Source: a virus. Taken from it: a stretch of DNA of 29,550 nucleotides. This document shows, in pieces, positions 3,386 through 29,550 of this stretch. Position 1 is the stretch's first letter. Every line of letters begins with the position of its first letter. Position numbers and translations under genes: made by a program. The notes beneath the pieces are model-generated. The model did no database searches. It had not been told where the DNA came from and saw nothing but the letters and a program-made list of their open reading frames with translations. The stretch covers positions 1-29,550 of the IMG/VR virus record IMGVR_UViG_3300032224_001278; one strand, given 5' to 3'.

Positions 3386-6300
3386 TTACTTTTTCTTTAA
3401 TTCGTCTACTTCTGCTTTGAGTTCTTTGATAGCCTCAATTAACAATGGAACTAATCTTTCATAATCAATAGTCAGATATTTTGCATCAATAGGTGCTGGA
3501 CTAACAATCTCTGGCATGATTTTTTGTACATCTTGAGCAGATACTCCGACTTCACGCCTAACTTTATAACCTAAATCTTGTGCTGTTTGGTTTGCTTCGT
3601 AATAGAAACCATTTAACTGTTGAACTTTTGATAAAGCCTCAGTTATTGCACCTAATCTAGTTTTTAATCTATCATCAGAGTAATAGGCAGTAATGTTATT
3701 TGTAGCACGAATTTCACCAGCCGTGCCTGATGCTGCTGTACCTATACCAATTGAATTTACTTGATAATTATTACTAGTATTCAAAGCATTTGCTGTTGAA
3801 GCAGTTGTAGCAGTTGTTGCAGAACTAGCAGAAGTTGCGCTTGTGGCTGTTGCAGCGTTACCACCAATAGATAAACTTGAAGCTGTTCCAGTGAGACCTG
3901 TACCAGGACCTGAAAACTGTGTGGAAGCAGTTATAGTAGTACCACCTATAGTAGTTGCACTTACTGTGCCACCTGATAAATTTGTTGCTGTTGTAGCAGA
4001 TACAGCAGAACCGGCCGATGAAGCATAATTTACAGACTGGCTTCCAATATTTAAGCTAGTAATAAAAGATCCGCCGCCGTTTGGATTTGCAGCATTTGTA
4101 GCGTATGCTACATATAAAGCTGATGGTTCTTTATATGCCGCAGAGCCTCCACTACCACCATTATCATAAACATATCTAGCATAATCAGCATTTGAAGCAG
4201 TACCAGTAGTATTCTGATTTAATGTTGGAAATGTACAATTAGATAAGTTACCCGAACTTGGTGTTCCTAGTGCTGGTGAAACTAATGTAGGAGAACTATT
4301 TAATACGACACTTCCAGTTCCTGTTGAAGAAGTCACACCAGTACCACCAGAAGCAACTGCTAATGTGGCTGATAAACCTGCAGCAGTACCGCTAGTGTTT
4401 TGATTTAGTGTTGGAAAAGTACAGTTTGATAAATTACCAGAACCTGGTGTTCCTAATGCTATACTGGCACCAAAACTTGTTAAACTAGAAGCAGTAATAC
4501 CTGATGCTAAAGTAGTTCCTGTTAAAGAAGCTGCCGTTGGAACTGTATTAGCTTTGGCGTAAGCAGACTCCATTTTACCATTGGTAGCAGAAACATTGAT
4601 AGTCGCTGTATTTGCCTGACCATATGCAGATTCCATCTTACCATTGGTAGCAGATAAATTGCTCGCAACTGTGGCAGCATTAGTAGTAGCCGTATTTGCC
4701 TGACTATAGGCCGACTCCATTTTACCATTAGTAGCAGAAGCATTGGTAGTCGCTGTGTTTGCCTGTGAATACGATGATTCCATCTTACCGTTGGTGGCAG
4801 AAGCGTTTGTAGTTGCTGTGTTCGCCTGACTATAAGAAGATTCCATCTTACCGTTGGTGGCAGAAGCATTGGTGGTCGCTGTATTTGCTTGAGTGTAAGC
4901 ATTCCCCATCTTACCATCTGTAGCAGCAATATTGGTAGTTTGAGTAGAATTTACTGACTCAATAGAAGTCATTCTAGTATTTTGAGAAGTATTAACACCA
5001 GATAATACAGTAATAACTGTTGTAGATGGAACTGTTGTATAACCAGCTCCTTGAGTAAATGACTCACTAATTAAGTTAGCAGTTAAAATCTTTGAATATT
5101 GAGTTGATGTAGTTATATTATCTACATCTAAAATTTCCCACCATTTACTTGTATTATTCCATTGTATTGCAGAATTTGCAATTCCGGGACTTCTATATGA
5201 TCCAATTCTTATATTTTGATTTGGAGTATCAGCAGATAATGTGAATTGTGTTGCATTGTAAACTGTTGCGCCATTTATTGTAAAATTACCAGCAACACTC
5301 AATCCACCTGTTCCGACTGCCGTAGAAGCGAATGATGCAGTTGCAAAAGGCGCATTAATTGCTGTGTTTGCAGAAATTGTATCAACATACTGTGTACCAG
5401 TTACATTCAATGTGCCTGTTCGTGTTATTGTACCCGCAGTTAATGAAGTGCCGGCAGTTATTGAAGTACCAGAACCTATTGTTGTATTTGATACCAATGC
5501 TGCGGCTATTGCTGTACCACTAGCAGTTAAAGATGCAGTTCTTACTAAATTGTTTGCAGTTAAATCATTTACCAAAGCACCAGCAGTTGTATTTAATGTT
5601 CCTGTTTGTATATTATTGTTGGCATATAAATTACTTAGATAACCGACACCGGTAGTATTTAATGTTACAGTTCTTGTAACTGTATTAGATGTTAAATCAT
5701 TTACTATTACTGCACCACCAGCATTTAAAGTTGTTGTTTGTATATTATTATTGGCATATAAATTACTCAGATAACCAGTACCAGTAGTGTTTAATGTTGA
5801 TGTTCTAGTTATGGTATTTGAAGTTAAATCATTTACCAAAGCACCAGCAGTTGTATTTAAATTTACAGTTCTTACTAAATTGTTGGCGGTTAAATCGTTA
5901 ACCAAAGCACCAGCAGTTGTATTTAAATTTACAGTTCTCACTAAATTATTAGCAGTTAAATCATTTACCAAAGTACCAGCAGTTGTATTTAAATTTACAG
6001 TTCTTATGAGTGTATTGGATGTTAAATCATTTACTATTGTACCAGAAGATGTATTTAAATTTAGAGCGCTTATTAAATTATTAGCCGTCAAATTACTAAA
6101 ATAACCACTACCAGTAGCATTTAAAGTTGTAGTTCTAGTTACGGTGTTTGAAGTTAAATCACTTACTATTGCACCAGAAGTTGTATTTAAATTTATAGTT
6201 CTTATGAGTGTATTAGCAGTTAAATCATTTACCAAAGCACCAGCAGTTGTATTTAATGTTGATGTTCTAGTTATGGTATTTGAAGTTAAATCATTTACCA

Positions 6301-6964
6301 AAGCACCAGCAGTAGTGTTTAAATTTACAGTTCTTGTTAAACGACCAGAAGTAAGGTCTGTAGTGAAAAAACCACCACCAGTAATATACGTTCCAAATCC
6401 AATAAAACTATTTGCCGCATAGTAATTTGTGGAATTTACATCATTTGTTACATTAACATAATTCTGTGCATTAATATTACTTGTAAAAGTTCCAATACCT
6501 GTAACAGATAATGTATTACTTAATGTTGTTGCTCTGAATACGCTTAATGTATTACTTATTGCTGTATTTCCAGTAACATACAAATTACCATTTACATTTG
6601 CTGTATTTGCTACATAAAGACTTGTATTTGGACCTTGAGCAACTAAAAGACCATTGATGTTAGCTTGACCTGAATTGGTCAAACCTAATGTTGTATTTGA
6701 AAAATAAATTTGGCCAGTAGTAACAGTTAAGTTATTCTGTATCGTTGCAGAAGAACCAGCACCAACAACTTGAAAAGAACCAGCAATAATAGCACTATTT
6801 GCTACCTGTAACCCTAAAGATGGTGAATTTAGATATAGAGTACCAGTTGGTTTAATATAATTGTTGGCAGCTATATCATTATTTTCTTTGACTAAAGCGT
6901 TAGTTGTGACTACCCAATCACCAAAGGTATTAGCGTAAGTTAAAATAGAAACTGTATTAGCCAT
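3386..6964 (-). CDS. Tail fibre/spike with C-terminal S74 intramolecular chaperone
   Basis: 1,192 residues. N-terminal MANTVSILTYANTFGDWVVT is an attachment-type segment I associate with environmental phage fibres. Residues 215-478 are twelve 22-residue repeats. Further on are six GKM(E/G)-x-x-Y copies of a QANTATTN repeat (nt 4531-4935). Next is a duplicated ALGTPxSGNLSNCTF module around a GTGSVVLNSSPTL core. The last 99 residues (from YYSDDRLK at 1094, through GVSAQDVQ and LTIDYERLVPLLIEAIKEL) match the peptidase S74 chaperone domain, which trimerises the fibre and then cuts itself off. The SDxRLK motif places the cut between Ser1096 and Asp1097, releasing 96 residues. The gene overlaps the upstream 75-codon gene by 8 bases. 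Role inferred: trimeric host-binding fibre. Confidence 0.93.
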   Translation of the reverse strand: MANTVSILTYANTFGDWVVTTNALVKENNDIAANNYIKPTGTLYLNSPSLGLQVANSAIIAGSFQVVGAGSSATIQNNLTVTTGQIYFSNTTLGLTNSGQANINGLLVAQGPNTSLYVANTANVNGNLYVTGNTAISNTLSVFRATTLSNTLSVTGIGTFTSNINAQNYVNVTNDVNSTNYYAANSFIGFGTYITGGGFFTTDLTSGRLTRTVNLNTTAGALVNDLTSNTITRTSTLNTTAGALVNDLTANTLIRTINLNTTSGAIVSDLTSNTVTRTTTLNATGSGYFSNLTANNLISALNLNTSSGTIVNDLTSNTLIRTVNLNTTAGTLVNDLTANNLVRTVNLNTTAGALVNDLTANNLVRTVNLNTTAGALVNDLTSNTITRTSTLNTTGTGYLSNLYANNNIQTTTLNAGGAVIVNDLTSNTVTRTVTLNTTGVGYLSNLYANNNIQTGTLNTTAGALVNDLTANNLVRTASLTASGTAIAAALVSNTTIGSGTSITAGTSLTAGTITRTGTLNVTGTQYVDTISANTAINAPFATASFASTAVGTGGLSVAGNFTINGATVYNATQFTLSADTPNQNIRIGSYRSPGIANSAIQWNNTSKWWEILDVDNITTSTQYSKILTANLISESFTQGAGYTTVPSTTVITVLSGVNTSQNTRMTSIESVNSTQTTNIAATDGKMGNAYTQANTATTNASATNGKMESSYSQANTATTNASATNGKMESSYSQANTATTNASATNGKMESAYSQANTATTNAATVASNLSATNGKMESAYGQANTATINVSATNGKMESAYAKANTVPTAASLTGTTLASGITASSLTSFGASIALGTPGSGNLSNCTFPTLNQNTSGTAAGLSATLAVASGGTGVTSSTGTGSVVLNSSPTLVSPALGTPSSGNLSNCTFPTLNQNTTGTASNADYARYVYDNGGSGGSAAYKEPSALYVAYATNAANPNGGGSFITSLNIGSQSVNYASSAGSAVSATTATNLSGGTVSATTIGGTTITASTQFSGPGTGLTGTASSLSIGGNAATATSATSASSATTATTASTANALNTSNNYQVNSIGIGTAASGTAGEIRATNNITAYYSDDRLKTRLGAITEALSKVQQLNGFYYEANQTAQDLGYKVRREVGVSAQDVQKIMPEIVSPAPIDAKYLTIDYERLVPLLIEAIKELKAEVDELKKK
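4531..4935 (-). repeat. 21-residue QANTATTN repeats in S74 fibre
   Basis: Six tandem copies of a unit of the form ATNGKMES(S/A)YxQANTATTNAS, mostly 63 bases long, with one copy lengthened by an ATVASNLS insert. The same DGKM-x-x-A-Y core is found in the fibre genes at 1-2708 and 14898-16613. Confidence 0.85.
5531..6322 (-). repeat. Twelve tandem 66-nt (22-residue) repeats in S74 fibre
   Basis: Residues 215-478 of the fibre are twelve consecutive 22-residue units of the form LNTTAGALVNDLTxNxxxRT. Some units are nearly identical; three or four diverge to a YLSNLYANNNIQT variant. Leu, Val and Leu recur at fixed spacing with Gly/Asn turns, as expected for a trimeric beta-structured shaft. Degenerate units flank both ends. 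Confidence 0.88.
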
Positions 6965-21545: not shown

Positions 21546-21938
21546 TTATCTATTTCTCTCTAAAAGAAGTGTTACTGTTGTTGGTAGTGTTGAGTTCTCT
21601 ATAAAAAAACTTAAAGTAACATTATAAGCATTGTAATCTGGTTGAGAAGTAACCGACACACTTTGTATGGATGCTCTAGGTTCATAGTTCTTTATAGTAT
21701 TTGTTATTTCAGTTTCCAAAGCACTTGATGTCAGAGGAGAAATAGGTTCAAACAATAAAGCATTCAAATTGGCACCTAAATCTGGATTAAAAGGTCTTTC
21801 ATAATGATTTGTGGATAATAAGTTGCGTATTGACCGTATAACTGCTTGTCCATCAAAACTAAGAGCAACATCTGCCGTTACGGGTTTCTTCGTAAAGGTG
21901 AAATCTATGTCTGAATAAATCTTAGATAAAGTTGCCAT
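21546..21938 (-). CDS. gp25: Baseplate wedge subunit gp25
   Basis: 130 residues, the usual size of the gp25/GPW family (T4 gp25, type VI secretion TssE). Family marks are YSDIDFTF near the start, VIRSIRNLL, the ERPFNPDLGANLNALLFEP block at 47-65 and the invariant Glu-Pro-Arg at residues 86-88. gp25 sits in the inner baseplate with gp6 and gp53 and is thought to nucleate sheath polymerisation. It lies directly before gp6 with one base between. Confidence 0.96.
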   Translation of the reverse strand: MATLSKIYSDIDFTFTKKPVTADVALSFDGQAVIRSIRNLLSTNHYERPFNPDLGANLNALLFEPISPLTSSALETEITNTIKNYEPRASIQSVSVTSQPDYNAYNVTLSFFIENSTLPTTVTLLLERNR

Positions 21939-21953
21939 TGTTTATTTATCTGC

Positions 21954-22784
21954 TTAGGATGGGTTAATTCTTGAAATTAACTTTGGACTGCCAATAAAAT
22001 TCTCAAGTAAATAAGTTTGAGTTTCTCCCATACCTGTAAATTGTCTGGTTGTATTGTACTTATTGATAGTCGTTTGAATATTTCCATAAAATGTTACATC
22101 ATTTGCCTGTCTACTAGTCAAGTAAACATTAGTATTTGATAAGTCTGTAGTAATTTGAGTAATCTGAGAATTGCTTAAATTTGATGTATTTGATGTAAAT
22201 CCAGTTTCAGGATCAGTATTTGATGAGATACTATTGGCTATTAGTATAATGTAGCTATTAACTGTATTTGAATAATCACGAATTTGTGGATTAACTAAAA
22301 TGCTAGTAAAGCTACCAAGAATTGGTGAACTATTAGTAATATTATCAGTTTGATTGACGATATATAGAACTTGCTTACCATAGTTCATAGCCATTTCATA
22401 ATAAGGATTTATCAAATCTTGACCTTCAAATGGCGTTAGACCTGATAACCTATTGGTATGTTGCATAAACGAATTAGCTGTAGAGGATAAAGAAACGGAT
22501 GCCGGATAAACTACGGTATTCAGGTTACTAACATTTGCAGTTAAAGTTATAATAGAATTGGCTGAATTCCAAATAATTTGTGTAGAATTTGCAACTGGAT
22601 TTTGAAAATAACCATTAACACTATTATTAGCAATATCTTGTGCTTGCCATGAACTAATGATAGCTGGTGTAGAATTCAAATGTTCTTGTACATCAGCTGA
22701 TAATGCCAATACATCATTATTAGGATCGGTAAAATTATATCCTAATGTAGCATAAACGCCTGTTGCATTATTTACTTGTGCCAT
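21954..22784 (-). CDS. Conserved virion-type protein, 276 residues, unknown role
   Basis: Asn/Ser/Thr-rich soluble protein with no signal peptide or enzyme motif. It has alternating helical stretches (for example NPYYEMAMNYGKQVLYIVNQ near 127-146) and a C-terminal tail FTGMGETQTYLLENFIGSPK. It lies between the gp5-type spike and gp25, with 12 bases before it and 15 after, and an AGGAAAA ribosome site. T4 has no counterpart in this position apart from small gp5.4, which this does not resemble. Context suggests a baseplate hub or inner-wedge component. I do not recognise a named family. Confidence 0.75.
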   Translation of the reverse strand: MAQVNNATGVYATLGYNFTDPNNDVLALSADVQEHLNSTPAIISSWQAQDIANNSVNGYFQNPVANSTQIIWNSANSIITLTANVSNLNTVVYPASVSLSSTANSFMQHTNRLSGLTPFEGQDLINPYYEMAMNYGKQVLYIVNQTDNITNSSPILGSFTSILVNPQIRDYSNTVNSYIILIANSISSNTDPETGFTSNTSNLSNSQITQITTDLSNTNVYLTSRQANDVTFYGNIQTTINKYNTTRQFTGMGETQTYLLENFIGSPKLISRINPS

Positions 22785-22796
22785 TATTTAATTTTC

Positions 22797-23597
22797 CTAA
22801 ATCATTTTAAGTAGAGGTGGACTTGTGGGTCCTTTTGGTGAATTATGTATATGAAAATTATGTAAATTTTTATTAATTATATCTGTCATTAATACAGCAC
22901 TCATTGTTCCAAACTTTGCATTAGGAGCAGACACGACACCGGGAATAGCAACATTCACAGGAAATCCAACAGTTAATCCACCAGGAGAAACAAATCCTAA
23001 TGCTCCAGCATAAACACCAGACAATGGTCCAGAGTTTACACGACCTTTAGAATCTATTTGGTCTGCCACTAATTGACCCTTTATCATTAAATCTCCAGAT
23101 AAAATTACATCACCACCAACACTAACAAATAAAGAACCTCCAAAATCTGGATTTGAAGTTATTGACATATCATAGTCAGATAACAATTTTATACCTTCCA
23201 AACCACGACATCTTTGTGTCATGTTACCACGAACTTCCATATTGTAATCACCATCAATTCTTTCATTTTTATTTCCTAAAACATGAATATTTGAATCGCC
23301 ATTTATAGTGATGTTACAAGTACCATTAATTTGAACATTCTTATCTTTGATTGTAATTTCATATCCATCACCATAAACCTTATGAACTTCATCACCATTT
23401 GGGTGCATTTCAATAAAAGTTCCAGAGCGGTGATTTAATCTAATTCGTTCACGAGCTGGTGTATCATCCATTTCAAATGTATGGCCAGATTCAGTTTGTG
23501 TTATATTATTATAAGGATAAACTGGTGGTGTTTCTGTACTGGCCGGTGATGGAGGTTCGCTCCAAGAACCATCTGCAATTGGTGGTTTTGTACTCAT
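22797..23597 (-). CDS. gp5-type beta-helix central spike with HxH tip
   Basis: 266 residues. After a Pro-rich N-terminal segment, residues about 38-125 have TGHTFEMDDT-like, then R-LNHRSGTFIEMHPNGDEV and strand-turn repeats (DGYEITIKDKNVQINGT, NITINGDSNIHVLG, DGDYNMEVRGNMTQ). These are the pattern of the gp5 C-terminal triple-stranded beta-helix and of related VgrG/gpV spikes. The C-terminus has His246, His249 and His251 (HNFHIHN) followed by KGPTSPP, resembling the HxH...G-x-T-x-x-P apex that binds an iron ion in P2 gpV-type spikes. There is no OB-fold or lysozyme domain. Trimeric membrane-piercing needle is inferred. It starts 8 bases after the 252-residue protein, with an AGGA site. Confidence 0.85.
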   Translation of the reverse strand: MSTKPPIADGSWSEPPSPASTETPPVYPYNNITQTESGHTFEMDDTPARERIRLNHRSGTFIEMHPNGDEVHKVYGDGYEITIKDKNVQINGTCNITINGDSNIHVLGNKNERIDGDYNMEVRGNMTQRCRGLEGIKLLSDYDMSITSNPDFGGSLFVSVGGDVILSGDLMIKGQLVADQIDSKGRVNSGPLSGVYAGALGFVSPGGLTVGFPVNVAIPGVVSAPNAKFGTMSAVLMTDIINKNLHNFHIHNSPKGPTSPPLLKMI

Positions 23598-23605
23598 AAT
23601 TTATC

Positions 23606-24364
23606 CTATGGTTGCTTCGTTTTCTGATTTCCTGCATTAATCGTTTCAGCTGAAGGTAATGAATCAAAATAACCAGTAATAGCTTCACCTGCAGCCGCCA
23701 CACTTTCAGCACTAGGTGGTGCAGAGATTGCAGCTGCAATATTTGTTGGAAGACCAACAACTGCACTCGTAATTGCTGTTGCTGAATTGATAGCTGTTTG
23801 TGCTACTTCTTTAGCGGCATTTAGAGTATCTCCTAAACCGCCACTATTACCACCAAAAACATCTGAAAAAATACCAGATAATAATTGATATAATCTACTC
23901 AAACAATCTTGAAATAATGCCAAAAGTTTTGCTGGTAAACTTAAAATCCATGCAATAGTTGCATTAAGATATTGTGTATATTTAATAACATATTTTTGAA
24001 AATCTTGAATTGGTTTTAAAACTTTTTTTGTATAATATTTAATTTCCGCTTTGATTTCTTTAAGTATTGATACTAAACTAGATGCTTCACCTGTAGGATC
24101 AAAACCTAAAGCTTTAATTACAGCATTAACCGCATCTCGAATATTCTGTGATTGTGAGTTTACAAATTCTTTTAATCCAAGATTTTTTATTAACTCTTGA
24201 CTAATACCACAATTATGTGATAAACTATTATTAGACTTATCAATATTTGTGTTAGCCATTTGGCTTCTGGCCAGACCGGGTATAGTTGGTTGACCAGATG
24301 TTCTATTATTGCCTGCAAATGGTGAAAGTAAATTAGTATTTCCTACTATGGGTAAAGTGCTCAT
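23606..24364 (-). CDS. Hub-associated protein with hydrophobic helices, in the gp5 lysozyme position
   Basis: 252 residues, not a recognised enzyme. The N-terminus is Asn/Ser-rich and includes LSHNCGISQELIKNLG. Helices follow at about 65-130, then a strongly hydrophobic stretch at about 132-170 (LNATIAWILSLPAKLLALF, then LSRLYQLLSGIFSDVFGG) and an Ala-rich helix at 190-213. Lysozyme-like Glu/Asp motifs are not apparent. It lies between the OB-fold and spike genes, 8 bases from each, with a strong AGGAG site. Similar proteins in this position occur, as I recall, in cyanophages without known function. Options are a hub plug or adaptor, a membrane-active factor delivered with the spike, or a tape-measure partner. 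The membrane idea rests only on hydrophobicity. Confidence 0.72.
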   Translation of the reverse strand: MSTLPIVGNTNLLSPFAGNNRTSGQPTIPGLARSQMANTNIDKSNNSLSHNCGISQELIKNLGLKEFVNSQSQNIRDAVNAVIKALGFDPTGEASSLVSILKEIKAEIKYYTKKVLKPIQDFQKYVIKYTQYLNATIAWILSLPAKLLALFQDCLSRLYQLLSGIFSDVFGGNSGGLGDTLNAAKEVAQTAINSATAITSAVVGLPTNIAAAISAPPSAESVAAAGEAITGYFDSLPSAETINAGNQKTKQP

Positions 24365-24372
24365 TTTATCTC

Positions 24373-24666
24373 CTATTGTTGAAGTCCAGGTAGAACACCC
24401 ATCATAATTGGTGATTGACCTGACATACCATCAGTAAAAAAACCAACAATCCATTCACCCAATTCAGGTACTGAAAATGATTTAGAATTGTTTAGTGCAT
24501 ACATTGGTTGTGCCCAAGGTAAATCTTTTGTTGGTAAATCAATTTTATTACTTGTGTGCCATCCAAAAATGCGAATCTGGCATCGGCCTAATCCCAATGG
24601 ATCAGCACGATTTTCAATAACTCCTATGAACCAAACAAAACCGTCTTTACCTAGAAAATTTTCCAT
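24373..24666 (-). CDS. Stand-alone gp5-type OB-fold hub protein
   Basis: 97 residues that match only the N-terminal OB-fold of T4 gp5: FVWFIGVIENRADPLGLGRC, then RIFGWHT, LPTKDLPWAQPMYA, GEWIVGFFTDG and QSPIMMGVLPG. In T4 this domain binds the gp27 trimer and is fused to a lysozyme and a beta-helix; here the protein stops after the OB fold with a TAG. The ATG shares one base with the stop of the gp27-like gene, so partner proteins are made from coupled cistrons. Role inferred: link between the gp27-like hub and the separate spike. Confidence 0.9.
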   Translation of the reverse strand: MENFLGKDGFVWFIGVIENRADPLGLGRCQIRIFGWHTSNKIDLPTKDLPWAQPMYALNNSKSFSVPELGEWIVGFFTDGMSGQSPIMMGVLPGLQQ

Positions 24667-26039
24667 TAATCAGCAATCACTTTCTTCCAATCAGGATTTG
24701 AACTATCAACACTATTAGGTTTACTTGCCAAACTATCTTTTGCAATCTCTAACACAGTTTGATATACACCTTCAGATTGGATAATATGTCTTACTGCTGT
24801 CACCAAATATTTACCTGAATAAAATTTATCTGGCTCTCGTTCTTTCAGAGTAGGTTTAATTGTCATTAAACTAAAATTAATTGTTCTACCTACTGTAATT
24901 CCTGGGTCACCTGGTATTGTTAGCTTAACTACTATATAGTTTGCTAATGAGAGTTGTGCTGTTCTATTAGGTACATAATTCTCAATAGCAATATCTTTTG
25001 CCACAGATCCTGGTTGTTGTTTTATATAAGATGCTTTTGTTTGACCAGAATTTGATGTTGTAAGTTTTAGTTTTGCATCAGATGTTTGATTCTGAGTTTG
25101 GCCAAATCTATTTTGTGAAGGAGTAAGAGCACCACTACTATCTAATGCTTTAACATTGGCATTTGTTTTATATTTGTTATAATCAAATTTGGTTAAATTA
25201 GTAGTCCTTGCTAAAGTATCTAAAGACAATACACTATTGGCAAATGTACCAGAATTAATATCATCCAATTGGTCATATGTTTTAACAAACTCATAATTTA
25301 ATACACTTATGGTGCTTTCTTGAAAAGATTCTGTCTCATTTGATAAATTTGTTTGTTGGTACTTATATGTAGCATAAACTTTTTGTCTCATCATAGACTG
25401 TATTGACCTAAAATTGTACCCATACTTAGTTTCAAAAAATAACATATCAGCACCAAATGCACCAGTAATAGCTGGTCTTGCATAAGTTGATAACCAACTA
25501 ATCGTTTCAAAAGGTTTTAGTCTCGGCACAACAAAATTATATACACCAAAAGTTTCTTCTATGTAAGCTTTTTTTACTCCTAAATCTTCTTTTAATATTT
25601 TAGATATAGATTCTGATATGGTTTGTCCAGATAAAGATTTGCTAATCTTTTTTTGTTCCGATATTAATAATTCTTCTGAACAAAAATATAATGTATAAAA
25701 TTCCATGTTTAAATTACCTGATGGAACTCTATCACCAACTTTATATATTCTATATACACTGGTAGTATCATTTGAAGCATCTTTAATTTTACCAAAATCA
25801 ATTTCTATAAATTCATTACCTTGTAATTGCAATGATTCAATAAAACCTTGCCCATCTTTTAATGTTAAATGTCCAGATACACAAAAGGAATATAAATCTT
25901 CATAGAATGAAAACTCAACTAAAAGCTTCCTCATCTCAAACTTTTGGCCTGCTGCCGTAAGTATATTAAGTGTATTTAATGAAAAATCTTGTGAATAAAT
26001 TGCACCAGCATTTTCCACTAAAGCATTAGTATCATCCAT
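24666..26039 (-). CDS. gp27: gp27-like baseplate hub protein
   Basis: 457 residues. The fold expected of gp27/Mu gp44-type hubs is suggested by an N-terminal domain with FEMRKLLVEFSFYEDLYSFC and GHLTLKDGQGFIESLQLQGN, then a mixed helix-strand region with SESISKILKEDLG and LKPFETISWLSTYARP, which is a typical hub motif. The C-terminal part has VVKLTIPGDPGITVGRTINF and a FYSGKYLVTAVRH strand pair that recurs in hub proteins. gp27 trimers form the torus between tail tube and spike. The next gene is the OB-fold protein that would sit on it, and gp53 is one base upstream. The longer length than T4 gp27 (391) is due partly to a polar linker at about 280-345. Family assignment is firm; exact equivalence to gp27 is inference. 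Confidence 0.85.
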   Translation of the reverse strand: MDDTNALVENAGAIYSQDFSLNTLNILTAAGQKFEMRKLLVEFSFYEDLYSFCVSGHLTLKDGQGFIESLQLQGNEFIEIDFGKIKDASNDTTSVYRIYKVGDRVPSGNLNMEFYTLYFCSEELLISEQKKISKSLSGQTISESISKILKEDLGVKKAYIEETFGVYNFVVPRLKPFETISWLSTYARPAITGAFGADMLFFETKYGYNFRSIQSMMRQKVYATYKYQQTNLSNETESFQESTISVLNYEFVKTYDQLDDINSGTFANSVLSLDTLARTTNLTKFDYNKYKTNANVKALDSSGALTPSQNRFGQTQNQTSDAKLKLTTSNSGQTKASYIKQQPGSVAKDIAIENYVPNRTAQLSLANYIVVKLTIPGDPGITVGRTINFSLMTIKPTLKEREPDKFYSGKYLVTAVRHIIQSEGVYQTVLEIAKDSLASKPNSVDSSNPDWKKVIAD

Positions 26040-26040
26040 A

Positions 26041-26652
26041 TTACTGGCTCATCAATGATTTAAATTGTTTTTCTAATTGACCAACATAATTATTTTTCAA
26101 AATTTTAATACTTCTTTTATCTTCATTTAACTGTAATTCATAATCATAAATGTTTATTAAATTTTTAGAAATAGTTACTTTTACTGTACCAGTTGCTAGT
26201 GAATAATTTGTTGTACCAATCGTTAAAGAATTATATGTATCTAATGATATTGCAATTTTATTGGTAGTTGTAATGTTGGTCGATATATCAAGTGTGTCAA
26301 TTTGTTTTTCATAATGATGTACTGTTGTATATGGATTAACTGCCGGAGTAGCCAATGTATATTTATTATCAATATATGATTCAAATACAACACCAGACAT
26401 TGGCCATTCCCATTGAGGATCAATAATTTGATTAGCAAATAATACTACCCAATATCTATATACATCACCGTAATACTTATGAGCAATAATTTCTGGTGTA
26501 TCGCCGTCTTGAATATTGTATTCATAATAGATTGCTGGACTAGTTAAAAAATTTTGTAATAAATTGGCTCTGGCTAATATATTGGTCAGAAGTAACGAAT
26601 TGCCTTTATCATCAGTTTTTACAAGTTTTGGTAATGTATTAAAGTATTGCAT
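26041..26652 (-). CDS. gp53: Baseplate wedge subunit gp53
   Basis: 203 residues (T4 gp53: 196). N-terminal MQYFNTLPKLVK and the YYEYNIQDGDTPEIIAHKYY block at about 42-61, followed by DVYRYWVVLFANQIIDPQWE and WPMS, are the hallmark of gp53. The DGDTPEIIAHKYYG part is the LysM-like fold seen in T4 gp53. gp53 clamps neighbouring gp6-gp7-gp25 wedges to each other during baseplate closure. There is one base between it and each neighbour (gp48-like upstream, gp27-like downstream). Confidence 0.95.
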   Translation of the reverse strand: MQYFNTLPKLVKTDDKGNSLLLTNILARANLLQNFLTSPAIYYEYNIQDGDTPEIIAHKYYGDVYRYWVVLFANQIIDPQWEWPMSGVVFESYIDNKYTLATPAVNPYTTVHHYEKQIDTLDISTNITTTNKIAISLDTYNSLTIGTTNYSLATGTVKVTISKNLINIYDYELQLNEDKRSIKILKNNYVGQLEKQFKSLMSQ

Positions 26653-28781: not shown

Positions 28782-29465
28782 ATGGCAGGTTCAATTAACG
28801 AATTTAAATCCAGTTTCAATAAGGACTTGGCAAGATCCAGTCGTTTTGATGTTAATATTAATATTCCTTTAACAATGATACCATACTTGAATTCCGCAAA
28901 GAGATTGAATTATCGGTGTGAGAGTGCTAATTTACCCGGCAGAACTTTAGGCACGACAGAACAAAAAACATATGGACCAATAGAAAAATTTCCATACATG
29001 ACAACATATAATGATATGTCACTTACTTTTATTGTTGATGATGATATGAGTCAAAAGGTTTTCTTTGATGCTTGGTTGAATTATATTAATCCACAATATA
29101 ACAATAACTTTAGATATAAGAGTGATTATGCAACAATCATTACAATCAACCAATATAATGTAGCAAATGAATTAACTTATTCGTGTAATTTATACGATGC
29201 TTATCCTATTTCTATAAATCAATTAGATTTGAATTGGGCTGATGATAGTTTTCATAAAATATCTGTAGATTTTGCCTATACATACTGGCAGAACAATTCG
29301 TTACAAGCACTTGGTATGCAATTGGTTGATGCTGGAATTAATTCAATTTCTTCTGCTCTTGGTGGTGTATTGAGTGGTTCAACTGGTACTTTTGCAGAAC
29401 CTACTATCTTAGGAGCAGGATTTGGTCTGACAGCTGAACAAGCAAATGAAGGTGGCGGTTTATAA
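28782..29465 (+). CDS. gp54-like tail-tube initiator (tail-tube fold)
   Basis: 227 residues. FNKDLARSSRFDVNINIP at the start, RCESANLPGRTLGTTEQKTY, a VFFDAWLNYINPQYN segment, CNLYDAYPISINQLDLNWAD and a final KISVDFAYTYWQN strand reproduce the pattern of the tail-tube fold (gp19, gp48, gp54). The extra C-terminal part, with QLVDAGINSISSALGGVLSG, resembles the end of T4 gp54 (AAINSIQSVFGNQGG), so gp54, the baseplate tube initiator, is favoured over gp19, which lacks such a tail. Its ATG directly follows the TAA of the previous gene, and an AAGGAAAA ribosome site lies in that gene's last codons. In T4, genes 48 and 54 are adjacent; here they are on opposite strands. Confidence 0.75.
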   Translation: MAGSINEFKSSFNKDLARSSRFDVNINIPLTMIPYLNSAKRLNYRCESANLPGRTLGTTEQKTYGPIEKFPYMTTYNDMSLTFIVDDDMSQKVFFDAWLNYINPQYNNNFRYKSDYATIITINQYNVANELTYSCNLYDAYPISINQLDLNWADDSFHKISVDFAYTYWQNNSLQALGMQLVDAGINSISSALGGVLSGSTGTFAEPTILGAGFGLTAEQANEGGGL

Positions 29466-29490: not shown

Positions 29491-29550
29491 ATGGCATTAC
29501 CAAAAATTGATGTACCGATTTATGAAATTGAATTACCAGTTTCAAAGAAA
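29491..29550 (+). CDS. gp26-like baseplate protein, N-terminal fragment
   Basis: Only 20 codons are in the window, starting MALPKIDVPIYEIELPVSKK and still open at the right edge. A GGAG ribosome site at 29477-29480 precedes the ATG with suitable spacing. The sequence fits the start of the T4 baseplate hub family that includes gp26 (proteins beginning MALPKL-x-VP-x-Y-x-L-x-LP). Its location after a gp54-like gene agrees with a hub or tail-assembly gene. The identification rests on a very short stretch. Confidence 0.6.
   Translation, partial: MALPKIDVPIYEIELPVSKK

Follow-up and report, generated by a model that had tools for sequence, protein, structure and literature searches.

Three genes at the gene 5 position of an uncultured T4-type phage, and a wall-cutting enzyme most likely encoded elsewhere in the tail cluster

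We wondered how an uncultured T4-type phage might open the murein of its host when the T4 gene 5 position is occupied by three genes (OB, MID and SPIKE) and none of the three products carries a muramidase or amidase signature. Judged from the sequence of this locus and of its relatives, the wall-cutter would most likely have been moved rather than lost.

Three genes in place of gene 5

The window, by which we mean the whole 29.55-kb virus fragment analyzed here, carries a T4-type tail cluster on its minus strand with genes for a gp48-like protein, gp53, a gp27-like hub, OB, MID, SPIKE, a protein termed G276, gp25, gp6 and more baseplate proteins (Table 1). Members of the T4 gp5 family are single polypeptides with a lysozyme domain (PF00959) between OB and spike. 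Here we found three ORFs, which are conserved in close relatives, and no such domain. The start codon of OB overlaps the stop codon of the hub gene (TAATG), and MID and SPIKE each follow after a gap of 8 nt with a Shine-Dalgarno sequence that overlaps the upstream stop (caaTAGGAGataaaATG; ccaTAGGAtaaattATG), which suggests that the translation of the three genes is coupled. The initial annotation had proposed separate genes for a 97-residue OB protein and a 266-residue spike, each with its own ribosome site or coupling, and both proposals held, with the coordinates exact. A sequencing error or a pseudogene was ruled out because OB and MID are read in different frames, the gene order is the same in five independent close contigs and none of the three genes has a dN/dS as high as 1. 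G276 is without a match in Pfam and PHROG, and is longer in the relatives L010 (668 aa) and L014 (614 aa). Elsewhere in the window, positions 3386-6964 hold a repetitive fibre-like ORF of 1192 aa whose C-terminus resembles a self-cleaving fibre chaperone domain.

Table 1. Position and assignment of the tail genes discussed in the text
Feature	Position in the window	Strand	Basis or remark
OB, stand-alone gp5 N-terminal OB-fold protein, 97 aa	24373..24666	-	PHROG and T4 gp5 matches
MID, helical protein at the lysozyme position, 252 aa	23606..24364	-	No Pfam family; predicted all-helical by AF2 with low confidence
SPIKE, stand-alone gp5C-like beta-helix spike, 266 aa, C-terminal HNFHIH apex-like motif	22797..23597	-	PHROG 430
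gp27-like hub protein, 457 aa, expected partner of an OB trimer	24666..26039	-	PHROG 350, E 2e-78
G276, between SPIKE and gp25, no family	21954..22784	-	Syntenic in nearly all relatives
gp25-like baseplate wedge	21546..21938	-	PF04965, E 9.7e-15
gp53-like baseplate wedge	26041..26652	-	PF11246, over cut-off
Tail tube-like protein, synteny anchor for the hydrolase gene in relatives	28782..29465	+	
gp26-like gene, first 20 codons (MALPKIDVPIYEIELPVSKK), cut by the window end	29491..29550	+	

OB matched the OB part of PHROG 430, 694 and 1922 with E-values of 1e-21 to 1e-27 (PHROG 430 positions 14-107, E 1.3e-27) and aligned with residues 8-88 of T4 gp5 (E 4e-8). Pfam PF06714 detected the window protein below and its relatives above the cut-off. 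In the predicted structure of the fused homologue L134 the OB barrel reached a pLDDT of about 86-90, and Foldseek matched this fusion model to T4 gp5 with an E-value of 1e-6. By profile and by model, OB corresponds to the N-terminal OB domain of the gp5 family. The relative G018 (L005:4537-5240, compared with window positions 24364-24666) has an insert of ~400 bp between OB and MID and an OB that is longer by ~107 aa, the extension containing SVVTPS repeats and a stretch rich in His (GKAYYGPFHQHQGKKMTGAFH). The 3' end of OB (ATGATGGGTGTTTTACCTGGACTT) is repeated on both sides of this insert, which suggests that the insert arose by recombination.

SPIKE aligned with positions 322-466 of PHROG 430 (E 5.1e-42) and with residues 366-492 of T4 gp5 (E 4.6e-18), and its match to PF22178 was sub-threshold. 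The alignments identify it as a putative C-terminal trimeric beta-helix of the gp5 type. Maturation of T4 gp5 involves cleavage between Ser351 and Ala352 (PMC3004832). As residue 5 of SPIKE aligns with residue 366 of T4 gp5, the SPIKE gene starts about ten residues beyond the gp5*/gp5C cleavage site. An HxH motif was present within the last 45 residues of all complete separate spikes (83/83), compared with 5.7% of shuffled tails. Fused OB-spike proteins were without a terminal HxH, the one exception being L154, which was also the only relative matched by the Pfam Apex family (PF18946), the model of GpV-type metal-binding spike apices; SPIKE of the window was not matched. Genes for PAAR proteins are present in Vibrio phage K362 and Pelagibacter phage Mosig, a sub-threshold match was seen in phage Melnitz, and none were found in nine IMG/VR records of the group, all of them fragments and the window included. 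A histidine apex has been described for compact spikes (PMC11948020), and by analogy the separate spike probably carries a metal-binding apex of its own.

The middle protein

The related set comprised 80 IMG/VR contigs, 73 of which were informative for the junction between OB and MID. The two form one ORF in 39 of these and two ORFs in the remaining 34, window included; every one of the 78 MID-bearing loci in the tree set has SPIKE as a gene of its own. Because OB and MID so often form a single ORF, MID can be placed by sequence within the equivalent of gp5*, where the gp5 lysozyme sits, as the initial annotation had it. Its further statement, that the 252-residue protein shows no muramidase motif, withstood profile searches against lysozyme and peptidase families: MID matched no Pfam family when the cut-off was relaxed to E ≤ 1, and lysozyme, amidase or peptidase domains were found in none of 51 OB-MID or MID relatives. 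A gp5 lysozyme hidden in the longer OB-MID proteins was looked for, and none was found. A tblastn search of MID against 50,697 phage records was likewise without match. Using an OB-MID fusion, tblastn produced an alignment over gp5 of Xanthomonas phage X1; hhalign, however, gave no support for homology between MID and the internal part of this protein or proteins of cyanophage ACG-2014g, Mosig or Melnitz.

Structure prediction yielded the OB barrel by way of the L134 fusion; MID alone was modelled by AF2 as all-helical with a mean pLDDT of 47 and was for this reason left out of the fold search. The MID part of the L134 fusion consisted of long helices with a pLDDT of 55-70, and a fold search with the OB-MID fusion returned only gp5-type OB folds, the helical matches being meaningless. 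The only other matches of MID and its relatives were many weak ones of coiled-coil or tape-measure-like type, which are consistent with a helical module of elongated shape. MID is the fastest-evolving of the three genes among close relatives, with a dN/dS of 0.45-0.79 against 0.12-0.20 for OB and 0.12-0.17 for SPIKE. On a quick SPIKE tree with long branches, the well-supported branches call for six or more switches of the OB/MID junction between a fused and a split state, and fusion versus separation of OB and spike needs one or two changes. MID is missing from some relatives. As both MID and lysozyme are lacking in the relatives with a fused OB-spike, MID is dispensable for this class of tail.

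We also considered that MID might itself act on the wall, as a murein hydrolase or another kind of enzyme with a new fold, and replace the lysozyme at the same position. The exact positional replacement, often as a fusion to OB, would agree with this idea, as would a conserved N-x4-H-x-C motif and an LP...C motif (residues N45, H50, C52 and C154), and the fold prediction is too poor to exclude an enzymatic fold. However, no family match was found, the predicted fold consists of long helices, MID evolves fast, the fused OB-spike relatives do without MID altogether, and relatives encode hydrolases in another protein, H1 (see below). We therefore consider an enzymatic MID highly improbable. Most likely, MID would serve as a structural module, helical and probably trimeric, that lies between OB and the spike or tape measure.

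Hydrolase genes behind the tail tube in relatives

In relatives, hydrolase domains were found in a tail-cluster protein other than gp5, at a gene position that in the window lies beyond its end. A scan anchored on the tube gene gave the same order in all sufficiently long contigs: tube, gp26-like gene, H1 with an enzyme and H2 without. Altogether 42 of the 51 H1 proteins scanned had a murein-hydrolase domain, and seven families were represented (GH19, lysozyme, SLT, VanY and others). In the tube-anchored set, where domain scans were combined with local GH19 matches, 37 of 42 H1 proteins had a recognized domain, namely GH19 (25), SLT (3), VgrG3-like (3), phage lysozyme (3, one of them also with VanY), VanY (2) and glucosaminidase (1). 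Nine more H1 proteins from contigs with a split gp5 included five with a murein hydrolase (Phage_lysozyme2, 1; SLT, 2; VgrG3-like, 1; glucosaminidase, 1), one with a weak GDSL match and three with none. Since 9/51 H1 proteins have no recognized murein-hydrolase domain, some members may have lost the enzyme. Where one contig covered the gp5 locus as well as a complete H1 that was scanned, this H1 carried a murein hydrolase in 26/31 cases. Amidase_2 was not found in the relatives.

Individual domains aligned with known enzymes: the M15 zinc-ligand motifs (SxHxxGxAxD, EPWH) of H1 align with those of B. subtilis YodJ, and an H1 GH19 domain aligns with a phage endolysin structure (2e-21). Contig G009 has a phage lysozyme in a 524-aa protein whose gene comes after those of the tube and the gp26-like protein, and PF00959 was found in the H1 of L088. 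One H1 (L135:11597-13681) combines phage lysozyme and VanY peptidase domains. Another (L120:11566-13521) has a sub-threshold match to GDSL lipase/acylhydrolase instead of a murein hydrolase and possibly has a non-murein activity.

G018, whose spike is 94% identical to SPIKE of the window, carries VanY and GH19 domains in two adjacent genes after the tube and gp26-like genes, and the closest relative with an H1 region (tube 86% identical) has two hydrolase genes in succession. The N-terminal region of H1 is common to its non-catalytic neighbour H2 (L088:4071-7759; L108:1-3712). This shared region and the tandem hydrolase paralogues of G018 suggest that the H1/H2 genes arose by repeated duplication. 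No phage match was obtained for H2, no hydrolase match for the gene adjoining gp26 in cyanophage S-SKS1, and the closest H1 gave a weak match to a PHROG tape-measure family.

H1 might simply be a lysis endolysin that adjoins tail genes and takes no part in entry, and the best matches of several H1 catalytic domains are indeed PHROG endolysins. Nevertheless, we regard this as unlikely, because H1 is large (about 450-770 aa), its end regions are kept around varying catalytic domains, its N-terminal region recurs in H2, and its genes lie within the tail cluster. From gene position and the region shared with H2, we infer that H1 is a virion protein of the tail tip.

The window is connected to these relatives by its final 60 bases, which are the beginning of the gp26-like gene. 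The encoded start is identical to the N-terminus of L108:3895-4620, and a 44-mer from this gene recurs exactly in four other contigs, L130, L128/L208, G018/L209 and L132. In relatives the gp26-like gene follows the tube gene and, where the contig is long enough, is itself followed by H1; the three contigs with the 44-mer that reach far enough (L130, L128 and G018) have an H1 with VanY or GH19. As the H1 position lies past the window end, we infer from these relatives that the virus has H1 and which types of enzyme it may carry; the gene would be expected roughly 180 bp after the end of the gp26-like gene.

The initial annotation had left two options, a phage that pierces the wall without a tail lysozyme or a different protein that supplies it. 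The relatives favor the second, as they encode a hydrolase-bearing H1 within this tail cluster, at a distance of a few kb. That there is no tail-borne murein hydrolase and that spike and contraction energy are enough, as proposed for phage phiCD508, would be in line with the absence of a hydrolase from every gp5-derived gene, with the existence of a myophage without detectable enzymatic domains (PMC11948020) and with the nine H1 proteins that have no hydrolase domain; the VanY or GH19 domains in H1 of the contigs that share the 44-mer with the window and reach far enough make it quite unlikely. A bearing on thin-walled hosts, also put forward at the time, found no support, as the relatives carry many kinds of murein hydrolase.

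It is thus probable that the T4 gp5 device has been dismantled into parts and that murein is opened by H1, a separate tail protein with an exchangeable catalytic domain. OB and the helical MID would together be the counterpart of gp5*, with MID replacing the lysozyme, and both would sit on the gp27-like trimer. SPIKE would be the counterpart of gp5C, translated alone from near the T4 gp5 cut point and bearing its own apex in place of a PAAR tip. Upon tail contraction SPIKE would pierce the outer membrane, and H1, the product of the gene behind the tube and gp26-like genes, would then open the murein with a catalytic domain that can be exchanged between lineages. A wider reading, to which we give slightly less than an even chance, is that gp5 lost its lysozyme, was divided at the old maturation site and was fitted with a helical replacement domain, and that in an abundant aquatic T4-type lineage a constant H1 exchanges its catalytic domain among no fewer than seven unrelated murein-hydrolase families, perhaps in step with the wall chemistry of the host.

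Comparison with known systems

Like T4 gp5, the tail-associated lysozyme (PDB 1k28), the locus combines an OB fold with a beta-helix spike and adjoins the gene of a gp27-like hub. T4 gp5 also ends up in two pieces, gp5* and gp5C (PMC3004832), and its cut site lies near the point that corresponds to the start of the SPIKE gene. Unlike T4, the window has no lysozyme, three genes and a helical MID in the lysozyme place, and SPIKE ends in an HxH apex-like motif, whereas the T4 end binds the PAAR protein gp5.4. The textbook single-protein spike with built-in lysozyme can therefore be spread over separate genes.

T4 as the sole yardstick is misleading, since gp5 without a detectable lysozyme domain occurs in other T4-type phages, among them Pelagibacter phage Mosig and Vibrio phage K362, although in both OB and spike form one chain and PAAR proteins are encoded in the genome. 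In PHROG and GenBank such proteins, too, go by 'baseplate hub and tail lysozyme', a misleading name for them. Pelagimyophage gp5 has been described as unusually divergent and tentatively tied to host walls (PMC7029224). The cultured T4-type Methylophilales phage Melnitz (MZ577095-98) also has its OB in a separate gene, with a gene for the spike after it, but differs in that the OB protein has a weak VanY match that stays under the curated cut-off, MID is absent and the spike gene is 667 aa long.

Enzymes outside gp5 have precedents. The gp5 of phage P1 has no lysozyme; its proposed replacement is an SLT domain of the tape measure protein Sit (PMC9024508). In this tape-measure-fused type of tail hydrolase (P1 Sit, TM4), too, the enzyme is assigned to a tail protein other than gp5, which we see here in the genes of relatives; in P1, however, gp5 is one protein and the enzyme lies at the tape measure C-terminus, in contrast to a separate H1 gene after gp26 with many enzyme types. 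Anabaena myophage A-1(L) combines an enzyme-free spike (OB and beta) with hydrolases in another baseplate protein, the hub protein gp15, of which they are domains (PMC10966104). In phiCD508 no enzymatic domain is detectable (PMC11948020). Our literature search, incomplete in its coverage, found no description of the three-gene arrangement or of the H1 series. A lysozyme-less gp5 with the enzyme elsewhere is already known from P1 and A-1(L); the notable part here is the swappable enzyme cassette. H1 is a specific, testable candidate for the relocated wall-opening activity, and with so many enzyme types borne by a single carrier, a natural series is available in which to test how tail enzymes match host cell walls.
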